Shown piece by piece: positions 8,730-64,000 of a stretch of 64,000 nucleotides of DNA; within the stretch, counting starts at the first letter, position 1, and the number at the start of each line of letters is the position of its first letter. The notes under the pieces are model-generated. The model searched no databases, was not told the origin of the DNA, and saw only the letters and a program-made list of their open reading frames with translations. Source of the DNA: Slackia heliotrinireducens DSM 20476. GTDB lineage: Bacteria > Actinomycetota > Coriobacteriia > Coriobacteriales > Eggerthellaceae. Location of the stretch: positions 62,001 to 126,000 of the forward strand of contig NC_013165.1 in the NCBI RefSeq assembly GCF_000023885.1, in the 5' to 3' direction. The translations under genes and the position numbers were made by a program.

Positions 8730-8785
8730 GATGTGTCCCTACTGACACAAAAATGTGCCAATCGGAAACGTCCCTACTGACACAT
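8730..8785 (+). repeat. R4a: 56-bp 3'-end repeat
   Basis: GATGTGTCCCTACTGACACA, an AT-rich centre with ATGTGCCAA, then GGAAACGTCCCTACTGACAC. The CCCTACTGACAC block occurs twice inside the unit, and GTGTC/GACAC can fold. Related copies are at 32096, 43572, 54481 and 56229. This copy ends two bases from the hypD stop codon. Confidence 0.85.
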
Positions 8786-32095: not shown

Positions 32096-32149
32096 AGTCA
32101 GTAGGGACGTTTCCAACTGACACACTTTTGAGACAGTGGGGACACATCC
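32096..32149 (-). repeat. R4b: 3'-end repeat behind the giant surface protein
   Basis: Reverse-strand copy of R4 (on the minus strand GGATGTGTCCCCACTG, then TTGGAAACGTCCCTACTGAC). It begins 11 bases after the surface-protein stop codon, so its orientation relative to the gene is the same as R4a to hypD. The following 32150-32212 is a degraded R6-like stretch (GTGGGACAACGGG, CCCCTTTGTC). Confidence 0.8.
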
Positions 32150-43437: not shown

Positions 43438-43503
43438 GAGCATCGGAGCCCTTTGTCCGTTCGTTGACGCTTCACGAAATTGGTCATTGAACGCAGTCCA
43501 AAT

Positions 43504-43571: not shown

Positions 43572-43626
43572 ATGTGTCCCTGGTGACACAAAAATGTGCC
43601 AAAAGGAAACGTCCCTACTGACACAT
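43572..43626 (+). repeat. R4c: 3'-end repeat behind the SixA-CHAD gene
   Basis: GATGTGTCCCTGGTGACACA, ATGTGCCAAAAGGAAACG, TCCCTACTGACACA. It follows the stop of the minus-strand gene at 43665 in the same relative orientation as R4a and R4b, with a hairpin between. Confidence 0.85.
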
Positions 43627-51690: not shown

Positions 51691-52650
51691 ATGCCTTACA
51701 TCAAAGGAAAAGGCCCTTCCGTGGTTATTGCGCTGGGCGGCAACGCCCTCGGAAAGACGCCGGAAGAGCAGCTCGAGCTTGTAAAGACGACGGCTCGTCA
51801 TATAGTCGACATGGTGGGCGATGGCGTGAACACCATCGTGACCCACGGCAACGGCCCCCAGGTCGGCATGATCAACAACGCCTTCGACATTGCCTCGAAG
51901 GACCCCGCGAGCAAGGTGCCGGTGGTTCCGTTTCCCGAATGCGGCGCCATGAGCCAGGGCTATATCGGATACCACCTGTCTCAGGCGATTCTCGGCGAGC
52001 TCAAAAGCCGCGGCATTATGCGTTCGACGGCGAACATCGTAACCCAGACCGTCGTCTATCCCGACGACCCCGCCTTCGACAACCCTACCAAGCCGGTAGG
52101 TTCCTTCATGACCGAAGAAGAAGCGAAGGCCCTGGCCGAAGCCACGGGGTGTACCGTTAAGGAAGACGCCGGCCGCGGATGGCGCATGGTGGTGGCCAGC
52201 CCCACCCCGCGCCGCATCGTCGAGTTCGACGCCGTGAAGGACCTGATGGACGCCGGCTACATCGTCGTGTCCACCGGTGGCGGCGGTGTGCCTGTATTCG
52301 AGCGTAACGATCATTACTACGGCGTTCCTGCCGTTATCGACAAGGACCGCTCGGCCGCCATGCTGGCATCAGGGTTCAAGGCGGACATGCTGGTCATCCT
52401 GACTGCAGTGGAGAAGGTGGCTGTGAATTTTGGCAAGCCCGATCAGCGCGACCTGGACATGATGACCGTGACCGAAGCTCGCGAGTACATCGCCCAGGGC
52501 CAGTTCGCCCCCGGCAGCATGCTGCCCAAGGTCGAGGCCTGCATCGACTATGTTACGAAGTATCCGCAGGGCAAGGCCCTGATCACCAGCCTCGAGTGCG
52601 CGGCAGCCGGCCTGCGCGGCGAAACGGGAACGGTGATTGTCACCGGCTAA
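51691..52650 (+). CDS. arcC: Carbamate kinase
   Basis: Makes ATP from carbamoyl phosphate and ADP. 319 residues with VVIALGGNALGK at the N-terminus, THGNGPQVG near 46, ECGAMSQGYIGYHL, VVSTGGGGVPV near 195, DKDRSAAMLA and the C-terminal ITSLECAAAGLRGETGT. All are typical of the amino-acid-kinase fold carbamate kinases. Cotranscribed with arcB. Its carbamoyl phosphate pool could also feed HypF. Confidence 0.96.
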   Translation: MPYIKGKGPSVVIALGGNALGKTPEEQLELVKTTARHIVDMVGDGVNTIVTHGNGPQVGMINNAFDIASKDPASKVPVVPFPECGAMSQGYIGYHLSQAILGELKSRGIMRSTANIVTQTVVYPDDPAFDNPTKPVGSFMTEEEAKALAEATGCTVKEDAGRGWRMVVASPTPRRIVEFDAVKDLMDAGYIVVSTGGGGVPVFERNDHYYGVPAVIDKDRSAAMLASGFKADMLVILTAVEKVAVNFGKPDQRDLDMMTVTEAREYIAQGQFAPGSMLPKVEACIDYVTKYPQGKALITSLECAAAGLRGETGTVIVTG

Positions 52651-52698
52651 ATTGCTTTTCGAGCATGCTTAGCCCATGCTTGCAAGAGAGAGGGAGAA

Positions 52699-52732
52699 GG
52701 TGCGGTCCGTGTGGCCGCACCTTCCGCTTTTT
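52699..52732 (+). terminator. Terminator after arcC
   Basis: GGTGCGG (52699-52705) pairs with CCGCACC (52715-52721), followed after six bases by TTTTT. Confidence 0.75.
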
Positions 52733-52814
52733 AGGCGCAGGTTGGCAATGGCTTTCGATTCTTTAATGCGTGAACGCCGCTAACGTGCGCCTGCCCTTGG
52801 TTTCCGACGCGGTT

Positions 52815-53273
52815 TCAGGCGAGTTCGGACAGCATCTGGGCTGCGTTGTCCTTGGGTTTCACCTTGCCGAATGCTTTCTCGATGGTGCCGTTGGCGTCGA
52901 TCAGGTACGTCGACCGCACCAGCCTGCGCGTGATCTTGCCGGTTTTCGTGGTGCTTTCGGCCAGCACGTCGTACGCGTTGATGACGTTCATTTCCGGATC
53001 TGACAGCAGCGTGAACGGCAGTCCGTGCTTCTCTTCGAACCGCTTGTGCGATTCGACTGAATCCTTGCTCACGCCAAGCACCACGGCCCCTTTTTCGCGA
53101 AGCTGCGGGTACAGCTCAGCAAACGAGCACGCTTGGCTCGTGCAGCCCGCCGTCATGTCTTTGGGGTAGAAGTACAGAATCACACGTTGACCTCGGTAAT
53201 CGGCCAGGCTGTGCATCTGGCCGTTCTGATCCGGCAGCGTAAAATCCGGAGCTTTAGTTCCCACTTCAAGCAT
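52815..53273 (-). CDS. bcp: Thioredoxin-dependent peroxiredoxin (BCP/PrxQ)
   Basis: 152 residues that reduce H2O2 and organic peroxides. GTKAPDFTLPDQNG opens the fold; the peroxidatic cysteine lies in MTAGCTSQACSF (Cys44) with the resolving Cys49 five residues on, as in alpha2-type BCP. The usual TPGCT is TAGCT here, a mild change. ATG 53273 has a GGAGG ribosome site; the longer frame upstream is spurious. Confidence 0.93.
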   Translation of the reverse strand: MLEVGTKAPDFTLPDQNGQMHSLADYRGQRVILYFYPKDMTAGCTSQACSFAELYPQLREKGAVVLGVSKDSVESHKRFEEKHGLPFTLLSDPEMNVINAYDVLAESTTKTGKITRRLVRSTYLIDANGTIEKAFGKVKPKDNAAQMLSELA

Positions 53274-53513
53274 GCGGGGCCTCCTTCGTTTTGGTGCTTG
53301 CTCGTGCGCGCCTGCGCAAGGCGGCTTGCCTGGCCCGCGTGGCGCTTCGGCGTTTGTGACATTATAGGCAACCCGCATGCGAATGGTGCGTTCGGAAACT
53401 GTCCATATGAAAATGCGGCGGTCTGTACCTGTGACCGTGACGACCTGCGGCGTAGGATGCGTCTTGGTTTTTCGATCGGCGTGCCGTGCGGTGCGCCGCA
53501 GCCAGGAGGTTGT

Positions 53514-54029
53514 ATGGCTATGCAGTTCAACAAGCGGACCGCGCTGCGTGTGGCGGCGCTGTTCGCGATTCTGTTTCTGATCGGGTTTACCATGCGGATT
53601 CCCGCCATTTGGCTGAGCGGGTTCTATGGCATGCACGGTGTGCTGAGCGCGCCGTTTTTCGGGGCGCTTGCCATGTGGCATTACCGTCACGGCGGCGCAG
53701 GGTGGCAGCTGGTGGCGGCCACGCTTCTGCTTGCGGCGCTGCTCGGGATGATGAGCCCGGTCATGGGCGTCGCCTTCGCCGCGATGGCCGCAATCGCTGG
53801 TGTCGTGCGCGCGGTCGTTGGCGGACGCGGGCACGGCGACCTGGTGTCTGCGGCTGTTTTCGGTGCGGTCAGCTACCCGTGCACCTTGGCCGCAGGCATT
53901 GCCCTAGGTTCCTATTTCCCCACGTCATCTTCTGTTTTGACCATTGTTGTCATGACCGTTTTGGGCGTTGCGCTCAGTGTGCTCGGCGCCCTCCTCGTCC
54001 CCTCCAAGAACGGGACAATGGGGACGTAG
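53514..54029 (+). CDS. Small multi-TM membrane protein, unknown
   Basis: 171 residues from ATG 53514 (AGGAGGTTGT ribosome site), with about five to six hydrophobic helices (ALRVAALFAILFLIGFTM, LVAATLLLAALLGMMSPVMG, VLTIVVMTVLGVALSVLGAL). The size and helix pattern resemble ECF S components, but no family motif is certain. The last residues (NGTMGT) and the TAG stop are supplied by the first unit of the R6 tandem array, so the array has grown into the 3' end of the gene. Confidence 0.75.
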   Translation: MAMQFNKRTALRVAALFAILFLIGFTMRIPAIWLSGFYGMHGVLSAPFFGALAMWHYRHGGAGWQLVAATLLLAALLGMMSPVMGVAFAAMAAIAGVVRAVVGGRGHGDLVSAAVFGAVSYPCTLAAGIALGSYFPTSSSVLTIVVMTVLGVALSVLGALLVPSKNGTMGT

Positions 54030-54203
54030 CACTTTGTCCCGCGTGGAGGTGGACAACGGGGACGGAGCCTTTTGTCTAACGAGACAACGGGGCGGACAAC
54101 GGGGACGTAGCCCTTTGTCCCGCGTGGAGGTGGACAACGGGGGCGGAGCCTTTTGTCCAACGAGACAACAGGGCGGACAACGGGGACGTAGCCCTTTGTC
54201 CAA
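54020..54203. repeat. R6 tandem array, 81-bp period
   Basis: Units start at 54020, 54101 and 54182 (GGGGACGTAGC...), exactly 81 bases apart, two full and one partial, with few differences. Each unit contains inverted GGGACAA / TTGTCCC and GGACAACGGGG motifs capable of hairpins. Related sequence occurs at 32150-32212, 41931/43444, 56110-56215 and in the hairpins at 43628 and 56287. Not CRISPR: there are no unique spacers. Confidence 0.88.
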
Positions 54204-54227
54204 TTGGACCTCCCCGTCATTCCGGCC

Positions 54228-54433
54228 TGCTCCTCCAGCCCGAAATGCGCTTCTGCGCCAAGAAAATCAACTAGTGCAGGACCGTTCTGTTCCGATCTTC
54301 TTTCGAAAACATACACCCGCGCAGAGCCCCAGGTCAGACGCGTGGCGATATGACACGCGCGACCCGTGTCTACGTGAAGTCGTGCATTACTTGTTTTTCT
54401 TGGCACAAATCGAGGTTTTCGAGCCGAGGAGCA
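54228..54433. repeat. R3b: 206-bp long-armed repeat, copy 2
   Basis: Same length and orientation as R3a (32261-32466), with diverged centre but conserved arms (TGCTCCTCCAGCCCGAAA ... GAGGAGCA) and the central GTCAGACGCGTG...CACGCG palindrome. Confidence 0.87.
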
Positions 54434-54480
54434 GGGCGCGACGGACTCGTGTGCCCGCTCCGCTTTCTGTCCCGCGTGCG

Positions 54481-54536
54481 GATGTGTCCCCATTGACTCG
54501 AAAATGCGCCAATTGGAAACGTCCCTACTGACACAC
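54481..54536 (+). repeat. R4d: 56-bp repeat
   Basis: GATGTGTCCCCATTGACTCG, GCGCCAATTGGAAACG, TCCCTACTGACACA. The one R4 copy not directly behind a stop codon; it lies after R6 and R3b in the gap before the cell-wall-binding protein. Confidence 0.8.
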
Positions 54537-54659
54537 CCCGGGCTGACCTCATTGTTCTGCTCCGTTGTGGTAGCGGCAGGCACGGCGAATGGGCCATGTG
54601 GCCGGGCGTCCAGCTGGCATAATGAATGTGTCCACGGGCGTTCGACCAGGGAGGTTGCC

Positions 54660-56096
54660 ATGACTGTTGCAGCAAAGCGGTTCGCGTATGTGGTTGGGGC
54701 ATGTCTTGCGTGTCTGGTTGCGATTGCCGCAGCGCCGGCGCAGGCGCACGCGGTCGTTCACCCCTCGGCCGACGACATCGTCCTCGGCGGGGTCGTGTAT
54801 TCCGCATCGCATCCGGAAACGGTGTCGTATGACGAAAGCTCCGGCGTGCTGACGCTGGAATACTACGACGGCGGAGGCATCCAGGTATTCGGGCAATCCG
54901 ATGTTGAAAGCCAGCTGACGATCGATCTGGTCGGGTACAACCAGATTTCGTGCACGGGCGAGCCCGACATCGACCCGGGCATCCGTATGACGGGCGGCAA
55001 AGGGAGCATCGAGATCACGAGCAGCGACCGGGCATACCTCGAGCTCGTCGCGAATTACACCTATTCCGGAATCTACCCCAACCTCTGCGGCGTGATGGTG
55101 GATGAGAACCTCACCGTATCGGGAAACGCCGACGTATGGGTGTGGACTGCCAGTTCGTCGAGCGACCACGTCCGCGGGTCGGGCATCTGTTGCCAGGATG
55201 GCGGCGTAATCGTGAAAGACCACGCCAGGCTGAAGGTGTGGGTCACGTTGGATTGGTCGAACGGCTGCTACGGAATCGAGAGCCATTCAATAAGCACGCC
55301 CGCCCTTGTCGCGACAACGGACGACGAGGTGTCTTTCGAGTGCACGACCGGACACGGCGCCAACACGTTCGCTGTGTACCAGCCGGGCGCGTCCGTCCCG
55401 TTGGGGCTTTACGGCGTGCCGTACGTCGAGGTGGCTGCGGTGTATGTGGCAACCAATAACGGCATGGACGGTTTCAACTTCGGCCTGCCGAGCTATTCGT
55501 TTTCAGCCACCGGGCCGAACGCGTATGTCTACAAGCTGGAGACCGGGTGGCTGAAAGTGGGTTCGAAATGGCGCTACTACCTGGGTGATGGCGAATTCGT
55601 GACAAACGACTTCCGCAGCGACAAGAACAAGACCTACTACTTCGACGCCGACGGATTCATGGTCACGGGGTGGAAGAAGGTTGCCGGTGCGTGGTATTTC
55701 TTCAGCAGGAACGGCGGCGCCATGCAGTTCGGTTGGGTGAAAGACGGCGGCAAGTGGTACTACCTCAGTTCCGGCGGCACCATGGCCACGGGTTGGCAGA
55801 AACTTGGATCCACGTGGTACTACTTTGACGTGAACAGCGGCGCCATGAAGACCGGTTGGCAGAAGATCAGCGGGAAATGGTACTGGTTTGAAAGCTCCGG
55901 CGCCATGAAAACCGGCTGGTTGCGAAGCGGCGGCAAGTGGTACTACCTGCAGAGTTCCGGCGCTATGGCCACAGGCTGGCTGAAGGTGGGCTCTACCTGG
56001 TACTACTTCGACAGCTCGGGGGCCATGGCCACGGGCACCAGGACCATCAACGGCAAGACCTATCGGTTCAGCTCGAGCGGCGCGTGGATTGCCTAA
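54660..56096 (+). CDS. Secreted protein with C-terminal cell-wall-binding repeats
   Basis: 478 residues. Signal peptide (VVGACLACLVAIAAAPAQAHA, about 9-29), then a domain of about 260 residues (HPSADDIVLGGVVYSASHPE, YYDGGGIQVFGQSDVESQ) rich in beta structure and resembling right-handed beta-helix carbohydrate-type domains. From about 293 there are eight or so GW/WYYF cell-wall-binding (choline-binding-like) repeats, closely related to those of the giant BspA-like protein. CAGGGAGG ribosome site. Function probably adhesion or binding at the surface, catalytic role not seen. Confidence 0.88.
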   Translation: MTVAAKRFAYVVGACLACLVAIAAAPAQAHAVVHPSADDIVLGGVVYSASHPETVSYDESSGVLTLEYYDGGGIQVFGQSDVESQLTIDLVGYNQISCTGEPDIDPGIRMTGGKGSIEITSSDRAYLELVANYTYSGIYPNLCGVMVDENLTVSGNADVWVWTASSSSDHVRGSGICCQDGGVIVKDHARLKVWVTLDWSNGCYGIESHSISTPALVATTDDEVSFECTTGHGANTFAVYQPGASVPLGLYGVPYVEVAAVYVATNNGMDGFNFGLPSYSFSATGPNAYVYKLETGWLKVGSKWRYYLGDGEFVTNDFRSDKNKTYYFDADGFMVTGWKKVAGAWYFFSRNGGAMQFGWVKDGGKWYYLSSGGTMATGWQKLGSTWYYFDVNSGAMKTGWQKISGKWYWFESSGAMKTGWLRSGGKWYYLQSSGAMATGWLKVGSTWYYFDSSGAMATGTRTINGKTYRFSSSGAWIA

Positions 56097-56109
56097 ACGG
56101 GGATGCGGG

Positions 56110-56215
56110 GTGGACAGTGGGGACGTAGCTCATTGTCCCGCGTGCATGTGTCAGTGAACATCGGGTGGACATCGGGGACGTGGACATCGGGGACGTGGCC
56201 CATTGTCCCGCCTTC
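56110..56215. repeat. R6-like degenerate repeats
   Basis: GTGGACAGTGGGGACGTAGC, then CATTGTCCCGCGTG, and twice ACATCGGGGACGTGG. Degenerate members of the R6 array family filling the space between the cell-wall-binding gene and R4e. Confidence 0.7.
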
Positions 56216-56228
56216 TGCCCCGCGCGCG

Positions 56229-56284
56229 GATGTGTCCCCATTGACTCGAAAATGTGCCAAAAGGAAACGTCCCTACTGACACAT
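56229..56284 (+). repeat. R4e: 3'-end repeat behind the CPBP protease gene
   Basis: GATGTGTCCCCATTGACTCG, ATGTGCCAAAAGGAAACG, TCCCTACTGACACA. Placed downstream of the minus-strand gene that ends at 56327, in the same relative orientation as R4a-R4c. Confidence 0.85.
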
Positions 56285-56286
56285 TC

Positions 56287-56313
56287 GGGACAAAGGGGAT
56301 TGCCCTTTGTCCC
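56287..56313. repeat. GGGACAAAGGG hairpin
   Basis: An 11-bp perfect stem (GGGACAAAGGG / CCCTTTGTCCC, loop GATTG), nearly identical to 43628-43656. It lacks the T run seen there. Confidence 0.7.
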
Positions 56314-56326
56314 GCTCCTTGTCCCA

Positions 56327-57232
56327 CTAGGGCTGAGGTTTGGCGGGGGAGAGCTGCAGCCAGCAGACGACGCCGAGCGCCATCATCGGGATGCCCGCGA
56401 CCAGTCCCAACGGGGACGGTCCCAGCGGGCCGGGGCCGACGGTGCAGAACGCAACCCCGGTGGACGCAATCGCGTTGATGGCTCCGTGGGCCAGCGCGCA
56501 AGGCCACATGCTTCCGGTATTCAGGCGCAGGTAACCCAACGCACATCCGATGGCTGTGCAGGCAACGATCATAACCAGGATCCCTACCAGGGGAAACCCT
56601 GCGTAGTCCATACCATAGTTGTGCCCCATGGCAATGACCGGCGCATGCCACAGACCCCATATCACGCCCGAAACCAGCACGGCTCCGCGTTCGGACAGGC
56701 GCTCGCACAGCGTCGGGAGCAGCAAGCCGCGCCAGCCGATTTCCTCGCCCGCTGCAGGAATCGCGTTGATGAACGGGGCGATGGTCAGCGCCGCAAAAAG
56801 GGAACTCGTGAGAAGAACGGGGGCCGGCGGCATCTGGGCGGCCAGCTGGTCGGAGGATGCGCCCGCCGCCGCTGCGTCGGCGGCCAGAAACGACTCCATG
56901 GACGGATCGAACAGGCTGGGGTTCAGGACGAAGAACACGACGCACCCGAGCAGCGTGAACACGGCTGGGGCGAACCACGCTGCCAGATAGAGCCGTAGGT
57001 TGCCTTCGAGCCGCAGCTTAAGGCCCAGGTCGATGCGGCCTTCGCTTCCGCTGGCGGCGTTGGCGGCAAGCGCTCCCACCAGGGGAAAGAACATGCTCGC
57101 GGCGATGAGAACGACCATGACCAGGGAGGAAGACTCGCCGTGTTCGAAGGTGCCCAGGGCGATTCCCGCAGGAATCAGCAAGCCCCAGGTAAGGCCGAAG
57201 GTTACGGCAAGATAGACGGCAAGTCGCTTCAT
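56327..57232 (-). CDS. CPBP-family intramembrane metalloprotease (Abi)
   Basis: 301 residues with about eight membrane helices. The zinc-site motifs of CAAX-prenyl/bacteriocin-processing proteases are present: AAGEEIGWRG (EExxxR) near residue 163, VIWGLWHAPV (FxxxH equivalent) near 192 and ALAHGAINA (HxxxN/B) near 250. Bacterial members give self-immunity to bacteriocins or cleave membrane anchors. The start overlaps the stop of the XRE regulator by four bases (ATGA), so the pair is one operon. Confidence 0.9.
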   Translation of the reverse strand: MKRLAVYLAVTFGLTWGLLIPAGIALGTFEHGESSSLVMVVLIAASMFFPLVGALAANAASGSEGRIDLGLKLRLEGNLRLYLAAWFAPAVFTLLGCVVFFVLNPSLFDPSMESFLAADAAAAGASSDQLAAQMPPAPVLLTSSLFAALTIAPFINAIPAAGEEIGWRGLLLPTLCERLSERGAVLVSGVIWGLWHAPVIAMGHNYGMDYAGFPLVGILVMIVACTAIGCALGYLRLNTGSMWPCALAHGAINAIASTGVAFCTVGPGPLGPSPLGLVAGIPMMALGVVCWLQLSPAKPQP

Positions 57233-58338
57233 CGGGCAATCTCCTTCAGGTTCGTCACGATACGTTGGAAGCGCGGCATCTGGGCCAGGCTCGCGAAAGC
57301 TGGGTTGGCTGACACGCTTTCCACCAGGCTTTTCTTGATGATAACCTCATCCCGCGGCGCGCTTGTGCCTATGATGTTGACCCGCTCGACCCAGGCCTCG
57401 GTCCTATCGAAAAACGCGTCGCCGTGCAGCTCGATGGGGAATTCCAGCTTACGGCACGCCCGCTCGTAATCCTCGAGGCAATCCAGGGCGCGATTGACGT
57501 TGCCGCCCATGAGGTGCGCGGTGGCGAATGACAAATGGATGGCCGCCGTGTTCACGTACACGTTTTCAAGATCGAAGGCGTCGATCAGGGCAAGCGCTCG
57601 TGCGTGAGCCACGTCGAGCTTCTGGGGCCTGTCGGCGTAGAGCGTCGCGAGCTGGGCCAGGCGGTTCAAGGCCAGCACCAGTGATTGGAAGAGCGTGCCC
57701 TGGAGCGTTTCGTCGGCCTCGTCGGCGCGTCCCAAAGCCTGGTAGGCGCTGGCCAGAAGCAGGTCGGTACCCAAATCGATGTCGGTCGACTTTTCGAGCG
57801 CCTCGGAGGCTGCCTGCGGGTTTCCGGTCACCAACAGCACACTTGCATCGATGGCTTCCGCAAGCTTGATGTCGGCGGATGACTCGGAATTGCGCTTGAC
57901 GCGGTGGCACAGCTCGACGATCTCGTCGGCAAACGCGGCGCGTGCGTTGCCTTCCACCAGGTTGATGTGGTTCAAATACAGCGCCGCGATTTGCGCCAGC
58001 AGGGGGTAGCAGGAATAATAGTCGCCCACGAGCTGCTGGCATTGCCGATGGGCCTGGTCAAAGGGCTCATTTGCGAAGGCCGCGCGCAATCGGGCGCATT
58101 CCCGCGCGATGCCTACCCGGGACATCTGGGGCTCGTAGCCGATAAGCTGGTCGATGGTGATGTCGAAGTAGGCGGCAATCTTCGGCAGCAGCTCGATGTC
58201 CGGGTAGCTCTGTCCGTTTTCCCACTTCGAGACGGATGCCTTGGTGACGCCGAGATGCATTGCTAGGCCGTCTTGGGTCAGGCGGGCCTCTTTCCGCAGG
58301 CGGTAGATGGTGGTTCCGATGGAAATCGCGGGTGTCAT
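57229..58338 (-). CDS. XRE-family regulator with helical-repeat C-terminus
   Basis: 369 residues: an N-terminal XRE helix-turn-helix (IGTTIYRLRKEARLTQDGLAMHLGVTKASVSKWENGQ, about 5-60), then about 280 residues of alpha-helical, TPR-like repeats with no enzymatic motif. The architecture resembles peptide-responsive RRNPP-type regulators. It is coupled (ATGA overlap) to the CPBP protease, so regulator plus intramembrane protease may form a signalling pair. Confidence 0.85.
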   Translation of the reverse strand: MTPAISIGTTIYRLRKEARLTQDGLAMHLGVTKASVSKWENGQSYPDIELLPKIAAYFDITIDQLIGYEPQMSRVGIARECARLRAAFANEPFDQAHRQCQQLVGDYYSCYPLLAQIAALYLNHINLVEGNARAAFADEIVELCHRVKRNSESSADIKLAEAIDASVLLVTGNPQAASEALEKSTDIDLGTDLLLASAYQALGRADEADETLQGTLFQSLVLALNRLAQLATLYADRPQKLDVAHARALALIDAFDLENVYVNTAAIHLSFATAHLMGGNVNRALDCLEDYERACRKLEFPIELHGDAFFDRTEAWVERVNIIGTSAPRDEVIIKKSLVESVSANPAFASLAQMPRFQRIVTNLKEIAR

Positions 58339-58485
58339 GCGGCTCCTCCTTCCGACATCTCAAGGGTATGCCGCAGGACCGCTGGCCGCAAGCGATAATG
58401 GGTTGATTCTGGTAAAGAAAGTCAACTATCGGTTGATTTGCGAAACTGTGCGCGGGTGGGGGACGACGGGGGGAGGGACGGCGGT

Positions 58486-58563
58486 GGACGACGGGGACGG
58501 AGGGTATTGTCCCTTCGTTGACGCGCGTCAACGAAGGGACAATACCCTCCGTCCCCGTCGTCC
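58486..58563. repeat. R5a: 78-bp perfect palindrome
   Basis: Perfectly symmetric about 58524/58525 with no spacer; the centre is TTGACGCGCGTCAA and the ends read GGACGACGGGGACGG / CCGTCCCCGTCGTCC. A second copy is at 60758-60843. Lies 3' of the MerR gene. It can extrude a cruciform or, as RNA, a 39-bp hairpin. No T run, so not an ordinary terminator. Confidence 0.93.
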
Positions 58564-58589
58564 CCCGCCACCGCAGCTCGTCGCCTGGT

Positions 58590-59042
58590 CTACCGGACCG
58601 AGGCGCTGTTGCCGTTGTCGTAGAGTTCCTGGATGCCCTCGGGAAGGTTGTCAGGCAGCATGGCAAGTATGCGGTCCTCGCTGCCGTCGGCAATGGCCGT
58701 GTCGTAATACCAGCACTTGTATTTCAGCATGTCGCGCATGCGGCTGAGCTGGGCAATCTCCTCCTCAATGGCCGCAAGGCGCGTTTCGAACAGCTCTTTG
58801 CGCTGGGGGTACGTGTCGGGGCCTTGCGTGCACCAATCCATGAACCGCTTGATATCGCGAATCTCCAGCCCCGAGCCCTTCAAACACTCTATAACGTTCA
58901 GCGCGTCGATTTCGGTGTCGGTAAACTTTCGGATGCCTGACGTGCGTTCCAAGTAAGGGAAGAGGCCTTCTTTGTCGTAGTAACGCAGGGTGGATATGGG
59001 CAGACCGAACATCTCCGAGATTTGTCCGATGGTGTACGTCAT
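58590..59042 (-). CDS. MerR-family transcriptional regulator
   Basis: 150 residues: winged-helix HTH MTYTIGQISEMFGLPISTLRYYDKEGLFPYLERT at the N-terminus, then IRKFTDTEIDALNVIECLKGSG and a coiled-coil dimer helix. The C-terminus has no cysteine-rich metal site, so an organic ligand or stress signal is more likely. ATG 59042 has a GAGGAG ribosome site. It diverges from the alpha/beta hydrolase, whose promoter has MerR geometry. Confidence 0.9.
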   Translation of the reverse strand: MTYTIGQISEMFGLPISTLRYYDKEGLFPYLERTSGIRKFTDTEIDALNVIECLKGSGLEIRDIKRFMDWCTQGPDTYPQRKELFETRLAAIEEEIAQLSRMRDMLKYKCWYYDTAIADGSEDRILAMLPDNLPEGIQELYDNGNSASVR

Positions 59043-59065
59043 GTTGCTCTCCTCAAAATACACAC

Positions 59066-59096
59066 TTGACCTAAAGTCAGGTTTAGCCTCTATCGT
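59066..59096 (+). promoter_or_regulatory. MerR-type promoter with 19-bp spacer
   Basis: TTGACC (59066-59071) and TATCGT (59091-59096) are 19 bases apart, the over-long spacing that MerR activators correct. The inverted repeat CTAAA-N6-TTTAG (59071-59086) lies inside the spacer. It drives the hydrolase gene. Confidence 0.75.
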
Positions 59097-59151
59097 CACA
59101 TCATATCCGAAACCGAAAGCAATGCAAGCACTCTTTCAGGAGGTTCACATC

Positions 59152-60153
59152 ATGATGAAAACCGAAGAACTCGAGCTCACTCAGGAGTGGGACAAGACGT
59201 TCCCGAAAAGCGACAAGGTCGACCACAGCAAGGCGACCTTCGTCAACCGCTACGGCATCACGCTGGCGGCGGACCTGTACGTACCCCAGGGCGCGCAGGG
59301 CCAGCTGCCCGCCATCGCCGTATGCGGACCCTTCGGCGCCGTAAAGGAGCAGTGCTCCGGTTTGCACGCCCAGGAGCTGGCCGAACGTGGCTTCGTGACC
59401 ATGGCCTTCGACCCGTCTTTCACCGGTGAAAGCGGCGGCGCGCACCGCTACATGGCCTCGCCCGACATCAACACCGAGGACTTCATGGCTGCCGTGGACT
59501 TCCTGTCGCTGCATGAGCTGGTGGACGCGGACCGCATCGGCATCTTGGGCATCTGCGGCTGGGGCGGCATGGCCCTGAACGCAGCGGCGCTGGACACCCG
59601 CGTGAAGGCGACCGTGGCTTCCACCATGTACGACATGACCCGCGTCAACGCCAACGGATACTTCGATTCCGAAAACACCGAAGAGGCACGCTACGCCAAG
59701 CGTGCCGCCATGTGCGCCCAGCGCCTGGTGGATTACAAAGCCGGCGAATACGCCCTGGGCGGCGGCGTGGTGGACCCGCTTCCCGAGGATGCGCCCAAGT
59801 TCGTTGCCGACTACTACGACTACTACAAGACGCCCCGCGGCTATCATCCGCGCTCGCTGAATTCCAACGGCGGATGGAATGTAATCGGTTGCGAATCCTT
59901 CATGAACCAGCCCATCCTGCATTACAGCAACGAGATCCGCTCCGCTGTGCTCGTGATGCATGGCGACGCGGCCCATTCCTTCTATTTCGGCAAGGACGCT
60001 TTCGCGAACATGGTGGAGGGCAACGCCTACGCCGACAACAAGGAGCTGCTGGTCATTCCTGGCGCATCCCACACCGATCTGTATGACGGCGGCAAGAACC
60101 AGGCGATTCCCTTCGACAAACTGGAGGCGTTCTATCGCGAATACCTGCGATAA
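59152..60153 (+). CDS. Alpha/beta hydrolase (dienelactone-hydrolase-like) with Cys nucleophile
   Basis: 333 residues from ATG 59152 (AGGAGG ribosome site). The strand-turn-helix nucleophile elbow reads GILGICGWGGMA, with Cys in the nucleophile place as in dienelactone hydrolases. The acid is in LVMHGDAAHSF and the histidine in PGASHTDLYD. The N-terminal NRYGITLAADLYVPQG, with FGAVKEQCSGLHAQELAERG and AFDPSFTGESGG, matches YcjY/dienelactone-hydrolase-like proteins. The MerR regulator sits divergently. Substrate unknown. Confidence 0.9.
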   Translation: MMKTEELELTQEWDKTFPKSDKVDHSKATFVNRYGITLAADLYVPQGAQGQLPAIAVCGPFGAVKEQCSGLHAQELAERGFVTMAFDPSFTGESGGAHRYMASPDINTEDFMAAVDFLSLHELVDADRIGILGICGWGGMALNAAALDTRVKATVASTMYDMTRVNANGYFDSENTEEARYAKRAAMCAQRLVDYKAGEYALGGGVVDPLPEDAPKFVADYYDYYKTPRGYHPRSLNSNGGWNVIGCESFMNQPILHYSNEIRSAVLVMHGDAAHSFYFGKDAFANMVEGNAYADNKELLVIPGASHTDLYDGGKNQAIPFDKLEAFYREYLR

Positions 60154-60167
60154 TCCAATATGACGCT

Positions 60168-60205
60168 GCGCGGCCGACGTGTTGTACAAACGTCGGCCGC
60201 GCTTT
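60168..60205 (+). terminator. Terminator after the hydrolase gene
   Basis: A perfect 12-bp stem (GCGCGGCCGACG / CGTCGGCCGCGC) with an eleven-base loop and TTTC. The next gene starts 21 bases later, so it may attenuate read-through into it. Confidence 0.8.
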
Positions 60206-60225
60206 CATGTAAGGGGGAAAGCAAC

Positions 60226-60747
60226 GTGGAAATACTGGTTTTGAACGGAAGCCCGCGTCCGCGCGGCAATACGGCCCAGATGGTGGCGGCGTTTCGAGAA
60301 GGTGCTGAATCTGCAGGGCATGCGGTGCACGTCGTCGATGTGTGCCGAAAACAGATCAAAGGGTGCCTGGCCTGCGAATACTGCCATGGCAAGGGGCGCG
60401 GCGAGTGCGTCCAGAAGGACGATATGCAAGAAGTGTACGACCTGCTCAAGACCGCCAATATGCTGGTAATCGCTTCGCCCATCTACTACCACGGGCTGAC
60501 CGGGCAGGTCAAATGCGTTATCGACCGTTTCTATTCGGCTCTGTATCCGAAGGCGCCCGCCAGCTTGCAGAAAGTCGCTATGTTCCTGAGCTCGGGGGAT
60601 GCGAACCAATACGTAGGTGCCTGGTTCTCCTTCGACGGAGATTTCCTCGGCTACTTGGGGCTCGAAAACGCCGGGTTTTACGCCGCGCCGGGCAGCGTAG
60701 ATGCGGGTACGCTTGAGGAGATCCGCCGCATGGGAGCGGAACTGTAA
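60226..60747 (+). CDS. Flavodoxin-like NADPH-dependent FMN reductase
   Basis: 173 residues from GTG 60226 (AAGGGGGAAAG ribosome site). VLNGSPRPRGNTAQMVAAF is the FMN phosphate loop; CLACEYCHGKGRGECVQKDDM is the cysteine-containing segment of iron-sulfur-flavoprotein/azoreductase-like reductases; ASPIYYHGLTGQVKCVIDRFYS is the second flavin loop. It is likely partly cotranscribed with the hydrolase. The R5b palindrome separates it from the convergent TetR gene. Confidence 0.9.
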   Translation: MEILVLNGSPRPRGNTAQMVAAFREGAESAGHAVHVVDVCRKQIKGCLACEYCHGKGRGECVQKDDMQEVYDLLKTANMLVIASPIYYHGLTGQVKCVIDRFYSALYPKAPASLQKVAMFLSSGDANQYVGAWFSFDGDFLGYLGLENAGFYAAPGSVDAGTLEEIRRMGAEL

Positions 60748-60757
60748 CAACACGCCA

Positions 60758-60843
60758 GGCGGGACGACGGGGACGGAGGGTATTGTCCCTTCGTTGACGC
60801 GCGTCAACGAAGGGACAATACCCTCCGTCCCCGTCGTCCCGCC
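60758..60843. repeat. R5b: 86-bp perfect palindrome
   Basis: Symmetric about 60800/60801 with no spacer, sharing the R5a sequence (centre TTGACGCGCGTCAA) plus a longer tip (GGCGGGACGACGG). Placed between convergent genes (FMN reductase and TetR). Confidence 0.95.
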
Positions 60844-60854
60844 AAGGGCCTGAT

Positions 60855-61397
60855 CTATGCGCGGTTTCTGAGGGCCGCCATGCCGCCGCTCGAATACAGG
60901 TTCAGCAGCGTTTGCGCACGGTCGAACTCGGGGCCGCGCTTCCAACCCAGCAGACGGTTCACGGCCAGGTTGCCGTAGGCGTTGTGCACGAACAGCAGGT
61001 AGGCGTCCTGTTCGGACAGTCCGGTCCTTTCCATAATGGAGGGCACGGTCTGCTGGGCACCCTGTTCGATCACCCGGGCGGCGATGCGCGAGAACACTTC
61101 GTCGTCGGCGTACAGCATCAGGTACTCGTCGTTGGCGGGGGCCCGCTGGCACAAGCTGGCCTGGGCGTTTCCCTCCAGCGGCGGGGCGGCCTCGAGCGCC
61201 TCGTCGATCAGCGCGTCCAGCAGGGCGAACTTATCCTCGTAGTGCAGATAGAAGGTGCCGCGGTTGATGTCGGCGCGCCGGCAGATGTCGGCCACGGTCA
61301 TCTTGTTGAACCCGACTTCGCGGAACAGCTCGAAGAACGCCTCGCGGATCACCATGACGGTGTAGCGGGTGCGTCGGTCGAGGGTCGGTTCTTGCAT
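60855..61397 (-). CDS. TetR-family regulator divergent from the sirtuin-like pair
   Basis: 180 residues: HTH MTVADICRRADINRGTFYLHYEDKFALLDAL (about 33-62) and a C-terminal TetR_C_7/8-type helical domain. Divergent from two sirtuin-like genes across 150 bases, and probably their repressor. The shared region holds repeated TGAACACAT motifs (about 61447 and 61508) of unknown meaning. Confidence 0.87.
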   Translation of the reverse strand: MQEPTLDRRTRYTVMVIREAFFELFREVGFNKMTVADICRRADINRGTFYLHYEDKFALLDALIDEALEAAPPLEGNAQASLCQRAPANDEYLMLYADDEVFSRIAARVIEQGAQQTVPSIMERTGLSEQDAYLLFVHNAYGNLAVNRLLGWKRGPEFDRAQTLLNLYSSGGMAALRNRA

Positions 61398-61548
61398 GGT
61401 CGTGCCTTTCTATCCGAATCCGCCATCAATATCGTGCATCCGTACGTTCCTGAACACATCCGGGCATCTGTCGATTGTCTTCGTTCAAATCAACACAGAT
61501 ACTGTTTATGAACACATGTTGATTATATCGAAACGAACGGAGAAATCC

Positions 61549-62514
61549 ATGACCCCTTACGAGCAATTGGTCGTCCAACTGACCAACCAGTCCTTCAGGT
61601 ACCAGCATGTCTACCGCCAGGGCGGCACGCCCTACAGGCTGACCGAGAAGGAGCCGCTGCCTTACGAAGAGCAAATCAAGGCGTTCGCCCACATGGTCGA
61701 GCAGGCCGACTGCATCCTGGTGGGTGCGGCATCGGGACTTTCCGCGGCCGGCGGCGGCGACTTCTATTACGAAGACAACGAGTCGTACCGCGCCTATTTC
61801 GGCAAGTTCGCCGAGAAATACGGGTTCCAAGGCGCTTTCGCCGGCATGATGCACCCGTGGGAAACCGCCGAGGAGCGCTGGGGGTATCTGGCCACGTTTT
61901 TGAACACGACGCTCAGCGTGCCCGTGCGTCAGCCCTATGTGGACTTGGACGCCGTAATCCGCGACAAGGAATTCTTCATCCTGACCACGAACCAGGATAC
62001 CCAGTTCATGAAGCTGTACCCCTGGGACAAGGTGGCAGAAATCCAGGGCGATCACCGGTTCTTCCAGTGCCAGCACTGCTGCACCGACGAGGTGTGGGAT
62101 GCCACCGAACCCGTGGCGAAGATGATCGAGGGCATGGGCGAGGGCCTGGCGGTGCCCGCCGACCTGGTGCCGCGTTGCCCCCATTGCGGCGGCGAGGCGT
62201 TCCCTTGGGTGCGCGGCTACGGCAACTTCCTGCAGGGCGAGCTGTATGACGAGCAGTACCGGAAGGTGTCCGACTGGCTTAGCGAACATGCCCAGGAGAA
62301 GGTGCTGTTCATCGAGCTGGGTGTGGGCCGCATGACGCCCGCGTTCATCCAGGAGCCGTTCTGGGCGCTGGTTTCGCAGCTGCCGCAGGCGAGCTATGTG
62401 GGCATCAACAACGTGACGCAGTTTCTGCCGGAGGTCATCGAGGACCGTGGCATCGCCATCCGCGGCGACATCGCCGAGGTGCTGACGGACGTTCGCGCCG
62501 AGATGGGACGATAA
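61549..62514 (+). CDS. Class-M-like sirtuin, first of a tandem pair
   Basis: 321 residues. The Rossmann start DCILVGAASGLSAAGG and FILTTNQDTQFMKLYP correspond to GAGxS and TQNxD of sirtuins, and the zinc site is CQHCC...CPHCGG. The residue aligned to the catalytic histidine (ELHG in deacylases) is glutamine in AEIQGDHRFFQ near residue 165. Class-M sirtuins (SirTM), which ADP-ribosylate lipoylated GcvH-L, are described with this His-to-Gln change. So ADP-ribosyltransferase or another NAD-dependent activity is more likely than deacetylation. No macrodomain, gcvH-L or lipoate-ligase gene is nearby. The start has a ACGGAG ribosome site. Confidence 0.8.
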   Translation: MTPYEQLVVQLTNQSFRYQHVYRQGGTPYRLTEKEPLPYEEQIKAFAHMVEQADCILVGAASGLSAAGGGDFYYEDNESYRAYFGKFAEKYGFQGAFAGMMHPWETAEERWGYLATFLNTTLSVPVRQPYVDLDAVIRDKEFFILTTNQDTQFMKLYPWDKVAEIQGDHRFFQCQHCCTDEVWDATEPVAKMIEGMGEGLAVPADLVPRCPHCGGEAFPWVRGYGNFLQGELYDEQYRKVSDWLSEHAQEKVLFIELGVGRMTPAFIQEPFWALVSQLPQASYVGINNVTQFLPEVIEDRGIAIRGDIAEVLTDVRAEMGR

Positions 62515-62515
62515 C

Positions 62516-63358
62516 ATGCGGGTCGATGATTTGAGGCGCATCCGCCAGGCGCTTGACACCGCCGACCTGGTGCTTATCGGTGCCAGCAACGGGTTGGACA
62601 TGGCCGAAGGACTGAACATCTTCGCGCCGGACGCGCATTTTGCCGAAGCTTACGGCGACCTGGCGCAGGCCTGCGGCGCCCGTTCCGTTTTGGAGGGCAT
62701 GTACCGCAGCCGCGGCAATCTGGCGCAGGCTTGGGCGTGGCAGGCCCGATTCGCCTGCCGCGAGTGGCTGGACTACAATCCGGGCGCCGTTATGGAGCCG
62801 CTGCGCAAGCTGGTGGGCCAAACGGATCACTTCGTGCTGACCTGCAACACGGATGCCCGTTTCATGCGGGCCGGTTTCGACGAGGCCTTTGTCATGCAGA
62901 CCGAAGGCACCGTGGCACGCATGGTGTGTTCCGCCAGTTGCTGCGACGAGCGCCATGCATCCGCCGAGGCTGTGCGTGCGCTGGATGCGTCCATTGCGGA
63001 AGGCGCTGTGGACCTGCGGCTCATTCCTGCGTGCCCGCACTGCGGCGCGCCTTTGACCCTGGCCGTCGACGAGATGCGTCTGCAGCATCCCGATTCCGAA
63101 ATCGCAGGTCAGATGGATGTGCTTAGGGACCTTCTCGCGCGTCGTCGTGGCGGCAACATCGTGGTGCTGGAGCTGGGTGTGGGCCTGCGCAACGGCGTTA
63201 TCAAGCAGCTGCTGGCCCGGACGGCGGCGGGCGAGCCGAACCTCACCTACGCCATTTTCAACTACAACCAGGTTGTCTTCCCCCAAGGACTGGAGGCGCG
63301 CTGCGTCGGCGTCGACGGCGACATGGCGCAGGCCTTCGAAACGATGGCGCGCCTGTAA
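62516..63358 (+). CDS. Second class-M-like sirtuin
   Basis: 280 residues, one base downstream of the first gene's stop and clearly homologous to it: ADLVLIGASNGLDMAEG, FVLTCNTDARFMRAG, FVMQTEGTVARMVCS with Gln instead of His, and the zinc site CSASCC...CPHCGAPL. VLELGVGLRNGVIKQLL and YAIFNYNQVVFP near the C-terminus match the NAD-binding end of the fold. Tandem sirtuin genes of this type in one operon are unusual. The two products may form a heterodimer or act on related targets. Confidence 0.78.
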   Translation: MRVDDLRRIRQALDTADLVLIGASNGLDMAEGLNIFAPDAHFAEAYGDLAQACGARSVLEGMYRSRGNLAQAWAWQARFACREWLDYNPGAVMEPLRKLVGQTDHFVLTCNTDARFMRAGFDEAFVMQTEGTVARMVCSASCCDERHASAEAVRALDASIAEGAVDLRLIPACPHCGAPLTLAVDEMRLQHPDSEIAGQMDVLRDLLARRRGGNIVVLELGVGLRNGVIKQLLARTAAGEPNLTYAIFNYNQVVFPQGLEARCVGVDGDMAQAFETMARL

Positions 63359-63384
63359 CTCGTAAGTGCGCCCGATAGCGAAAT

Positions 63385-63413
63385 GGCCCGACCGGCAGGT
63401 GCCGTGTCGGGCC
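63385..63413. terminator. Hairpin between convergent genes
   Basis: GGCCCGAC (63385-63392) pairs with GTCGGGCC (63406-63413). The minus side continues ATTTCGC. It probably ends both the sirtuin operon and the dehydrogenase gene. Confidence 0.6.
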
Positions 63414-63437
63414 GTTGCGGTTGCGGGGCGTGAGCTT

Positions 63438-64000
63438 CTACTCGAAGTCGGAGTCCTGGGTGCGCATGACCAGGCGGCCGGGAACGCCAGCGCCGTCCAG
63501 CAGGTCAAGGCCTTCGGGAACCTTGTCCAGAGTGGTTTCGATGGCATTAATGGTGAGGTCACCGGTGGCCATAAGGGCGATGACGTTCTCGATGCTTTCC
63601 TTCGTGCCTCCCACGGAGCCGCGCAGCTCAGTCTGCATGTTGATCAGCGCGTTCGTGTTGACGGTGGTCTCCAGCTTGGTCATGCCGACAACGACGACGC
63701 GGCCGCCGGGCTTTACGGCCAGCAGAGCGTCGGAGGTGGTCGTTCCGGCGCCGGCGAAGTCGACTACCACGTCGAGCTGGTCGTCCTTGAAGTCGAGGAT
63801 GCTGTCGGCCGTCTTGTAGGCGCCCAAAGACATGGCGTCGTCCTTGGCCTGCTGCTTGCGGGTGGCGCAGTAGACCTGGGCGCCCTGCAGCACGGCGATG
63901 CGGGTGGCGACGCGGCCAAGACCGCCGACGCCGATGATGCCGACCTTCGTGCCTTCACGTACTTCGGCACGGTCCACGACGGCATGATAGGAAGTCATGC
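63438..64000 (-). CDS. Zinc-type alcohol dehydrogenase, C-terminal part
   Basis: 187 visible residues continuing past the window edge. The text GCMTSYHAVVDRAEVREG at the edge is the usual phrase before the cofactor domain, so the ATG at 63998 is not the start. GIIGVGGLGRVATRIA is the GxGGxG nucleotide motif. VVDFAGAGTTTSDALLAVKPGGRVVVVGM and the C-terminal IETTLDKVPEGLDLL complete the MDR fold. The metal-binding half is outside the window. Likely an NAD(P)-dependent alcohol/aldehyde dehydrogenase. Confidence 0.9.
   Translation of the reverse strand, partial: MTSYHAVVDRAEVREGTKVGIIGVGGLGRVATRIAVLQGAQVYCATRKQQAKDDAMSLGAYKTADSILDFKDDQLDVVVDFAGAGTTTSDALLAVKPGGRVVVVGMTKLETTVNTNALINMQTELRGSVGGTKESIENVIALMATGDLTINAIETTLDKVPEGLDLLDGAGVPGRLVMRTQDSDFE

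Follow-up and report, generated by a model that had tools for sequence, protein, structure and literature searches.

Here we describe two long palindromes in the gut bacterium Slackia heliotrinireducens DSM 20476 and the dispersed repeat family to which they belong. Both lie in a stretch of 64,000 nucleotides (contig NC_013165.1, positions 62,001 to 126,000 of the forward strand), called the window below and numbered from its first letter. Palindrome search and self-comparison place palindrome 1 at 58480-58569; it is 90 bp long, with 45-bp arms and no spacer, and contains a single mismatched pair (58485/58564), so that its perfect core of 78 bp spans 58486-58563. Palindrome 2 (60758-60843) is perfect over all of its 86 bp with a spacer of 0, and the two have 79 bp in common at 100% identity. 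Gene and domain calls give, from left to right, an XRE-type helix-turn-helix regulator gene (57229-58338, minus strand) with palindrome 1 on its 5' side; the MerR regulator gene merR (58590-59042, minus strand), whose end lies 20 bp from palindrome 1; an alpha/beta hydrolase gene (59152-60153, plus strand); an NADPH-dependent FMN reductase gene (60226-60747, plus strand), which ends 10 bp ahead of palindrome 2; and a TetR regulator gene (60855-61397, minus strand), which ends 11 bp past it. The original prediction, an earlier reading of this DNA, had claimed two perfect, spacerless palindromes of 78 and 86 bp with identical shared sequence around merR, hydrolase and FMN reductase genes, and in all of this it was right.

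Among spacerless palindromes of the window the longest perfect arm measures 43 bp, against 7-9 bp in ten first-order Markov windows, which excludes a chance origin; once palindromes 1 and 2 are removed, the longest such arm in the window is 9 bp. Folded as DNA, palindrome 2 reaches -58.6 kcal/mol (z -16.1), and a search of window positions 52000-64000 against Rfam at gathering scores gave no match. Each palindrome is a REPIN-type inverted doublet of two repetitive extragenic palindromic (REP) units that match a family model, R1, described below. In palindrome 1 these units occupy 58486-58524 on the plus strand (G000:C1:120486-120524 in genome numbering) and 58525-58564 on the minus strand (G000:C1:120525-120564), and in palindrome 2 they occupy 60761-60800 on the plus strand (G000:C1:122761-122800) and 60801-60840 on the minus strand (G000:C1:122801-122840). 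Further R1 matches in the window, all on the plus strand, are an array of five direct units (54012-54201), a pair of direct units (56112-56214) and a partial unit (43444-43470; G000:C1:105444-105470). The cores of the five-unit array alternate between GGGGACGTAG and GGGG-CGGAG types, and the array lies upstream of a gene with TGW..GGKWYY repeat blocks, by eye of the cell-wall-binding type.

A dispersed family whose opposed neighbours face inward

R1 is a sequence-only model built on 26 units from the S. heliotrinireducens genome, which is a single contig of 3,165,038 bases. Searching this genome at E<=1e-3, with 150 of 1415 first-look candidates scored and unit counts therefore lower bounds, gave at least 83 half-units in 51 clusters, of which 27 are single, 18 double, five triple and one of five units. 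The family includes further long, near-perfect palindromes outside the window pair, so that the two copies in the original prediction are there as described and form only part of a larger set, whose probable transposase had been missed. The REP units, referred to here as GGGACnnnGGGGACGGAG units, are 29-40 nt long and start with GGGACnnn; the GT[AG]G that marks canonical GTAG-type REPs at the 5' foot of the hairpin was not found there, and some units contain GTAG internally, away from the foot.

Opposed neighbouring units always face inward. At gaps of up to 60 bp we counted 14 inward and no outward pairs, together with 10 ++ and five -- pairs, and at gaps of up to 200 bp the numbers were 16, none, 10 and six, respectively. 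These inward pairs, and the fold of palindrome 2, correspond to the inverted REP pair within one hairpin that defines a REPIN. Moreover, a gene finder of our own making, with the window as training set, places 49 of 50 clusters between genes (one of the 51 clusters lacked context and was dropped); the coding fraction of the window, 0.84, serves as reference. Among six near-identical palindromes, similarity ends at the palindrome edge or at most about 20 bp beyond it and the flanks differ; those at genome positions 122761 and 257116 have exactly 86 bp in common at 100% identity. The clusters are also clumped (for example at genome positions 116012, 118112, 120486 and 122761), with nine neighbour gaps of up to 2.5 kb against 1.98 expected from a random control over the whole genome that ignores the restriction to intergenic DNA.

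RAYT genes and their repeats in S. heliotrinireducens and its relatives

A Y1_Tnp search of the S. heliotrinireducens genome found three genes: RAYT1 (G000:C1:1466575-1467327; E 9.9e-15), which encodes a Y1/HuH tyrosine transposase; a second REP-associated tyrosine transposase (RAYT) gene, RAYT2 (G000:C1:154545-155300); and a gene for an IS200/IS605-type TnpA (G000:C1:1283455-1283811). One R1-family unit lies some 140 bp upstream of RAYT1, and two more follow it within 100 bp on the downstream side, so that same-family REPs stand on both sides of the gene, as they do in REPIN systems. The RAYT1 product shows the motifs H-x-H and Y-I-x-x-N-P and, towards its C terminus, an RQIERLTG block. In the AlphaFold model (predicted local distance difference test score, pLDDT, 92.6) the C-terminal helices between residues 206 and 247 form a helix-turn-helix, and the best PDB match of this model is 4er8 (E 6.8e-8), a complex of TnpAREP with a REP hairpin. 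A profile search also found 4er8 (9e-6); phmmer with the RAYT1 sequence alone returned no PDB match, so that this relationship emerges only via profile and fold. TnpAREP of E. coli acts in vitro on single-stranded REPs, which it cleaves and recombines, according to the part of the work drawn on here (PMC8266576).

These protein features recur among related RAYTs. The Y1_Tnp domain is found in all 52 members of alignment A2, which was drawn from 82 RAYT proteins (L043 and L067 were left out for a stop in the range, the others by choice), and Pfam HTH_23 in five of the 52 and not in RAYT1. Among 53 loci inspected out of 80, HxH is present in 53 and Y[IVL]xxNP in 50, and the RQIERLTG block is conserved. 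RAYT2, which scores below the cut-off of the REP-transposase model NCBIfam NF047646 (70.3 against 80 bits), is flanked by a repeat family of its own, GTCAGTAGGGAC, with 79 genome sites at up to one mismatch against seven for the reversed pattern. Copies of GTCAGTAGGGAC lie in the window at 8735-8781, 32097-32108, 43611-43622, 54521-54532 and 56269-56280, three of these five places being within 0.5 kb of R1-family units.

We surveyed 61 genomes, including S. heliotrinireducens, for R1 units at E<=1e-3 and for RAYT1 relatives at E<=1e-10. Filters for R1 were stricter here (108 of 1372 first-look candidates scored for S. heliotrinireducens) and counts are again lower bounds. At least five of the 61 genomes have R1 units and 20 have a RAYT1 relative, with S. 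heliotrinireducens counted in both, which leaves four of 60 other genomes with R1 units. The two closest RAYT1 relatives among these 60 are found in G037 (54% identity) and in Hugonella massiliensis (G012; 53%), and both genomes have R1 matches. In H. massiliensis, the stop codon of the RAYT gene is overlapped by a doublet whose 32-bp arms contain one mismatch, and a further unit lies upstream, so that this RAYT gene too has same-family REPs on both sides; other doublets elsewhere in the genome have arms that are perfect over 23 to 34 bp. One further genome, G019, has nine RAYT1-like matches in 1.4 Mb, several of them partial and one with a stop.

A more general association between RAYTs and flanking repeats was seen in the best 80 of 210 RAYT relatives, mostly from Coriobacteriia with a few from Bacillota. 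Matching repeats on both sides exceeded the 99th percentile of the control at 58 of 75 loci (51 inverted, seven direct; five of the 80 were dropped for short flanks), with the highest of 160 random pairings of flanks across loci reaching 39. Of 82 RAYT genes, 43, RAYT2 among them, have within 400 bp a hairpin with GGGAC near the loop start and a stem of at least 7 bp. Such hairpins reach a density of 1.324 per kb near the genes against 0.054 per kb in the remainder of these loci, and the 43 loci comprise 35 distinct stems. Permuting the letters of GGGAC gave a mean of 3.3 loci, the high values, GGACG (19) and GACGG (14), being overlaps with the true motif. In a Coriobacteriia metagenome-assembled genome (L054), the RAYT flank carries a perfect stem of 25 bp beside GGGAC, far longer than at the other listed loci.

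In two further genomes, the RAYT-flanking repeat is dispersed in its own genome and absent from three other genomes: that of G057 has 62 matches against one for its control, and that of G014 has 90 half-sites of GGCATAAAAGGGGAC against none for its control. The latter stand mostly in adjacent +/- pairs, that is, as short palindromes, two of which flank the G014 RAYT. Altogether, the five pairs of RAYT and repeat, from four genomes, have a GGGAC motif in common, set in four different stems.

Interpretation and alternative explanations

We are confident, short of certainty, that the palindromes are REPIN-like copies most likely cognate to RAYT1, a TIRYT-type RAYT with a C-terminal helix-turn-helix. 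From these patterns we infer mobility of the element, strand choice and copying between arms. The element would consist of two inverted 29-40-nt REP units joined via their 3' tails. During replication, a single strand of it would fold into a long hairpin, whereupon RAYT1 may recognise the units on single-stranded DNA, nick beside them via its tyrosine, and move or copy the hairpin to other intergenic sites. Perfect arms would then reflect young copies together with either arm-to-arm copying, by template switching of the polymerase, or inverted duplication of one unit, and palindromes 1 and 2 would be independent insertions around three genes in a stretch where copies are clumped.

The arms themselves bear on this history. 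In eight of the 14 inward pairs the two 28-nt arms are identical, and mean identity within pairs is 26.64 of 28 positions against 23.86 after shuffling, a value reached by none of 20,000 shuffles; that arms are more alike than under shuffled pairing suggests homogenisation or birth by inverted duplication, as far as can be judged from sequence. In four of the 14 pairs the arms are identical and their haplotype occurs in no other of 76 units (seven of the 83 had no fixed register and were dropped). Young age accounts for copies with one common haplotype and not for private haplotypes on both arms, which point to copying between arms or to an origin of the doublet in an inverted duplication. Private single letters do not favour homogenisation, since one is present on both arms and nine on one arm only, although six of these ten come from the pair at 1404552, partly via a shifted register. 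Their mostly single-arm distribution indicates that decay is under way as well. The proposal of recent origin or conversion in the original prediction is thus supported by copies that are near-identical up to about the palindrome edge and by arms that share haplotypes, and is tempered by these one-arm letters.

Several observations weigh against a REPIN-like family served by RAYT1. The likeness of the arms may partly reflect subfamilies, as within-pair identity was reached by 124 of 20,000 shuffles in the main one (nine pairs) and by 172 of 20,000 in the other five pairs. A single R1 unit folds no better than its shuffles (z -0.53 and -0.87 for two units), and compensatory pairing inside single units is weak, with the outer pair formed in 32 of 61 distinct units (six of the 83 units were dropped). 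The units that flank RAYT1 are related to the palindromic subtype and not identical with it, the flanks of RAYT1 itself fail the GGGAC-hairpin test with stems of at least 7 bp and are not among the 43 of 82, and RAYT1 scores below the NF047646 cut-off (67.8 against 80 bits). Across genomes, unit and RAYT are imperfectly linked: R1 units are missing from 16 of the other 19 genomes with a RAYT, G033 has two weak R1 unit matches and no RAYT match, the RAYT of G059, a genome with R1 units, is only 38% identical to RAYT1, and the 11 further genomes surveyed from the genus yielded neither R1 units nor a RAYT1 relative at our thresholds. One genome per species was covered, and no direct sign of movement was seen. 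The absence of R1 from 16 of 19 RAYT genomes is what one would predict were every RAYT paired with a private repeat, yet is no proof of this. By our own arithmetic, presence of R1 and presence of any RAYT are not significantly associated over the 60 relatives (three of four against 19 of 60), and within the cross-genome link between unit and RAYT only the correspondence with the two closest RAYTs is striking.

Other explanations account for part of these data. If the palindromes were selected transcription terminators or stabilisers of mRNA 3' ends, and the repeats had spread by ordinary duplication alone, their position would be readily understood: by hand count, 24 of the 49 intergenic clusters are no more than 30 bp away from a gene 3' end and one is as close to a 5' end, 18 of 47 clusters lie between convergent genes against nine of 36 window gaps longer than 50 bp, and palindrome 2 takes up most of the 107 bp that separate its convergent neighbours. 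However, a 3'-end bias is also expected from selection against promoter damage, by eye neither strand of the two window copies shows a T-run after the hairpin, and such a role explains neither why near-identical copies end fairly sharply nor why related units lie on both sides of a transposase gene; we therefore consider it improbable. An assembly or cloning artefact, to which perfect palindromes are prone, is scarcely credible here given near-identical copies in different flanks and the same kind of element in H. massiliensis. In addition, the S. heliotrinireducens RHS 1T genome was finished by Sanger and 454 sequencing, as its report states in the part drawn on here (PMC3035243).

Two further alternatives invoke other mobile DNA, and we regard both as very unlikely. 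Palindromes 1 and 2 could be the ends of a composite mobile unit with merR, hydrolase and FMN reductase genes, as two near-identical copies do flank the three genes. No sign of such a unit was found: four more near-identical palindromes lie elsewhere without such a partner, units occur in 51 places, and the genome-wide clumping of clusters makes one flanking pair unremarkable. Moreover, in a search of the genus for a counterpart of the locus, the only clear partial match (75% and 70%) was in G008, whose DNA matches the three genes in the same order in a genome without R1 units, and we reject a composite transposon on these grounds. Alternatively, the palindromes could be miniature inverted-repeat transposable elements of the IS200/IS605-type TnpA and not of a RAYT, one REP unit (1282789-1282828) being about 0.6 kb from that gene. 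Its product is a plain IS200 TnpA (155.9 bits) with no R1 match close on the other side, whereas RAYT1 has close units on both sides.

Known systems and palindrome tolerance

In what follows, comparisons with published systems rest on the parts of the cited papers that were drawn on. The nearest named groups of RAYT1, judged by sequence, are probably TIRYT and TnpAREP subclass 2.1. Like TIRYT/TIRtron elements (PMC3733652), the Slackia system combines a Y1 tyrosine transposase with flanking inverted repeats that carry a GGGG-AC-type motif, and TIRYT repeats likewise occur singly, as dimers or in clusters in the genome. The TIRYT consensus GGGGWSAS agrees with the RAYT1 unit GGGGACGG at seven of eight positions, and GGGGACAG of several relatives fits it exactly. 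The opposed repeats in Slackia differ in that they form inward doublets, often perfectly palindromic, whose loop is short or absent. A word search of the main text of PMC3733652 found no mention of Actinobacteria, Coriobacteri, Eggerthella, Gordonibacter or Slackia. With subclass 2.1 (PMC6006769) RAYT1 shares a long Y1 protein with a C-terminal helix-turn-helix extension; in that survey, as far as the part used here extends, REP-like sequences were not reported near subclass 2.1 genes, in contrast to the 58 of 75 related loci with flanking repeats above control found here.

Similar to REPINs (PMC3116915), two inverted REPs share one hairpin, are dispersed between genes, are linked to a RAYT and show compensatory changes between arms. 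The Slackia elements differ from them in a loop of 0-9 bp in ten listed doublets where REPINs have a spacer region, in units that have no 5' GTAG-type tag, and in fewer copies (at least 83 units). Homogenisation by template switching (PMC8604942, PMC7202029) likewise renders the arms of inverted repeats identical; in Slackia only the pattern is seen, not the events. Searches of the open-licence literature that paired REPs or RAYTs with Eggerthella, Actinobacteria, Coriobacteria and four genera brought up nothing on such a system among the papers listed.

The original prediction had seen a puzzle in the survival of such palindromes under SbcCD. Both genes are present as adjacent, open frames, sbcC (1081 aa) and sbcD (381 aa), the former called from Pfam domains and its place beside sbcD, as it scores below the TIGR00618 cut-off like that of 13 of 14 control genomes. 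Absence of sbcCD as the cause of palindrome survival is accordingly rejected. In the part of the E. coli study drawn on here (PMC3315005), an 85-bp interrupted palindrome was tolerated in the presence of SbcCD and was no target of its cleavage during replication; that palindrome has a spacer and those of Slackia have none, which makes the comparison close and inexact. By this analogy, destruction of palindromes of about 78-86 bp would not be expected despite the sbcCD genes. The puzzle largely dissolves, and the RAYT-repeat system remains.

We consider it possible, if on balance doubtful, that the RAYT lineage of Coriobacteriia follows a common scheme, in which a constant apical GGGAC would be read by the Y1 domain, a lineage-specific stem might be read by the C-terminal helix-turn-helix, and doublets would be kept near-perfect by continual copying of one arm from the other. 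The four stems around one motif in five RAYT-repeat pairs make such a recognition rule directly testable. Finally, several palindromes of about 70-90 bp coexist in S. heliotrinireducens with open sbcC and sbcD genes, and a dispersed palindromic family is tied to what is probably a branch of RAYTs for which the survey (PMC6006769), in the part considered, found no REP-like sequences.

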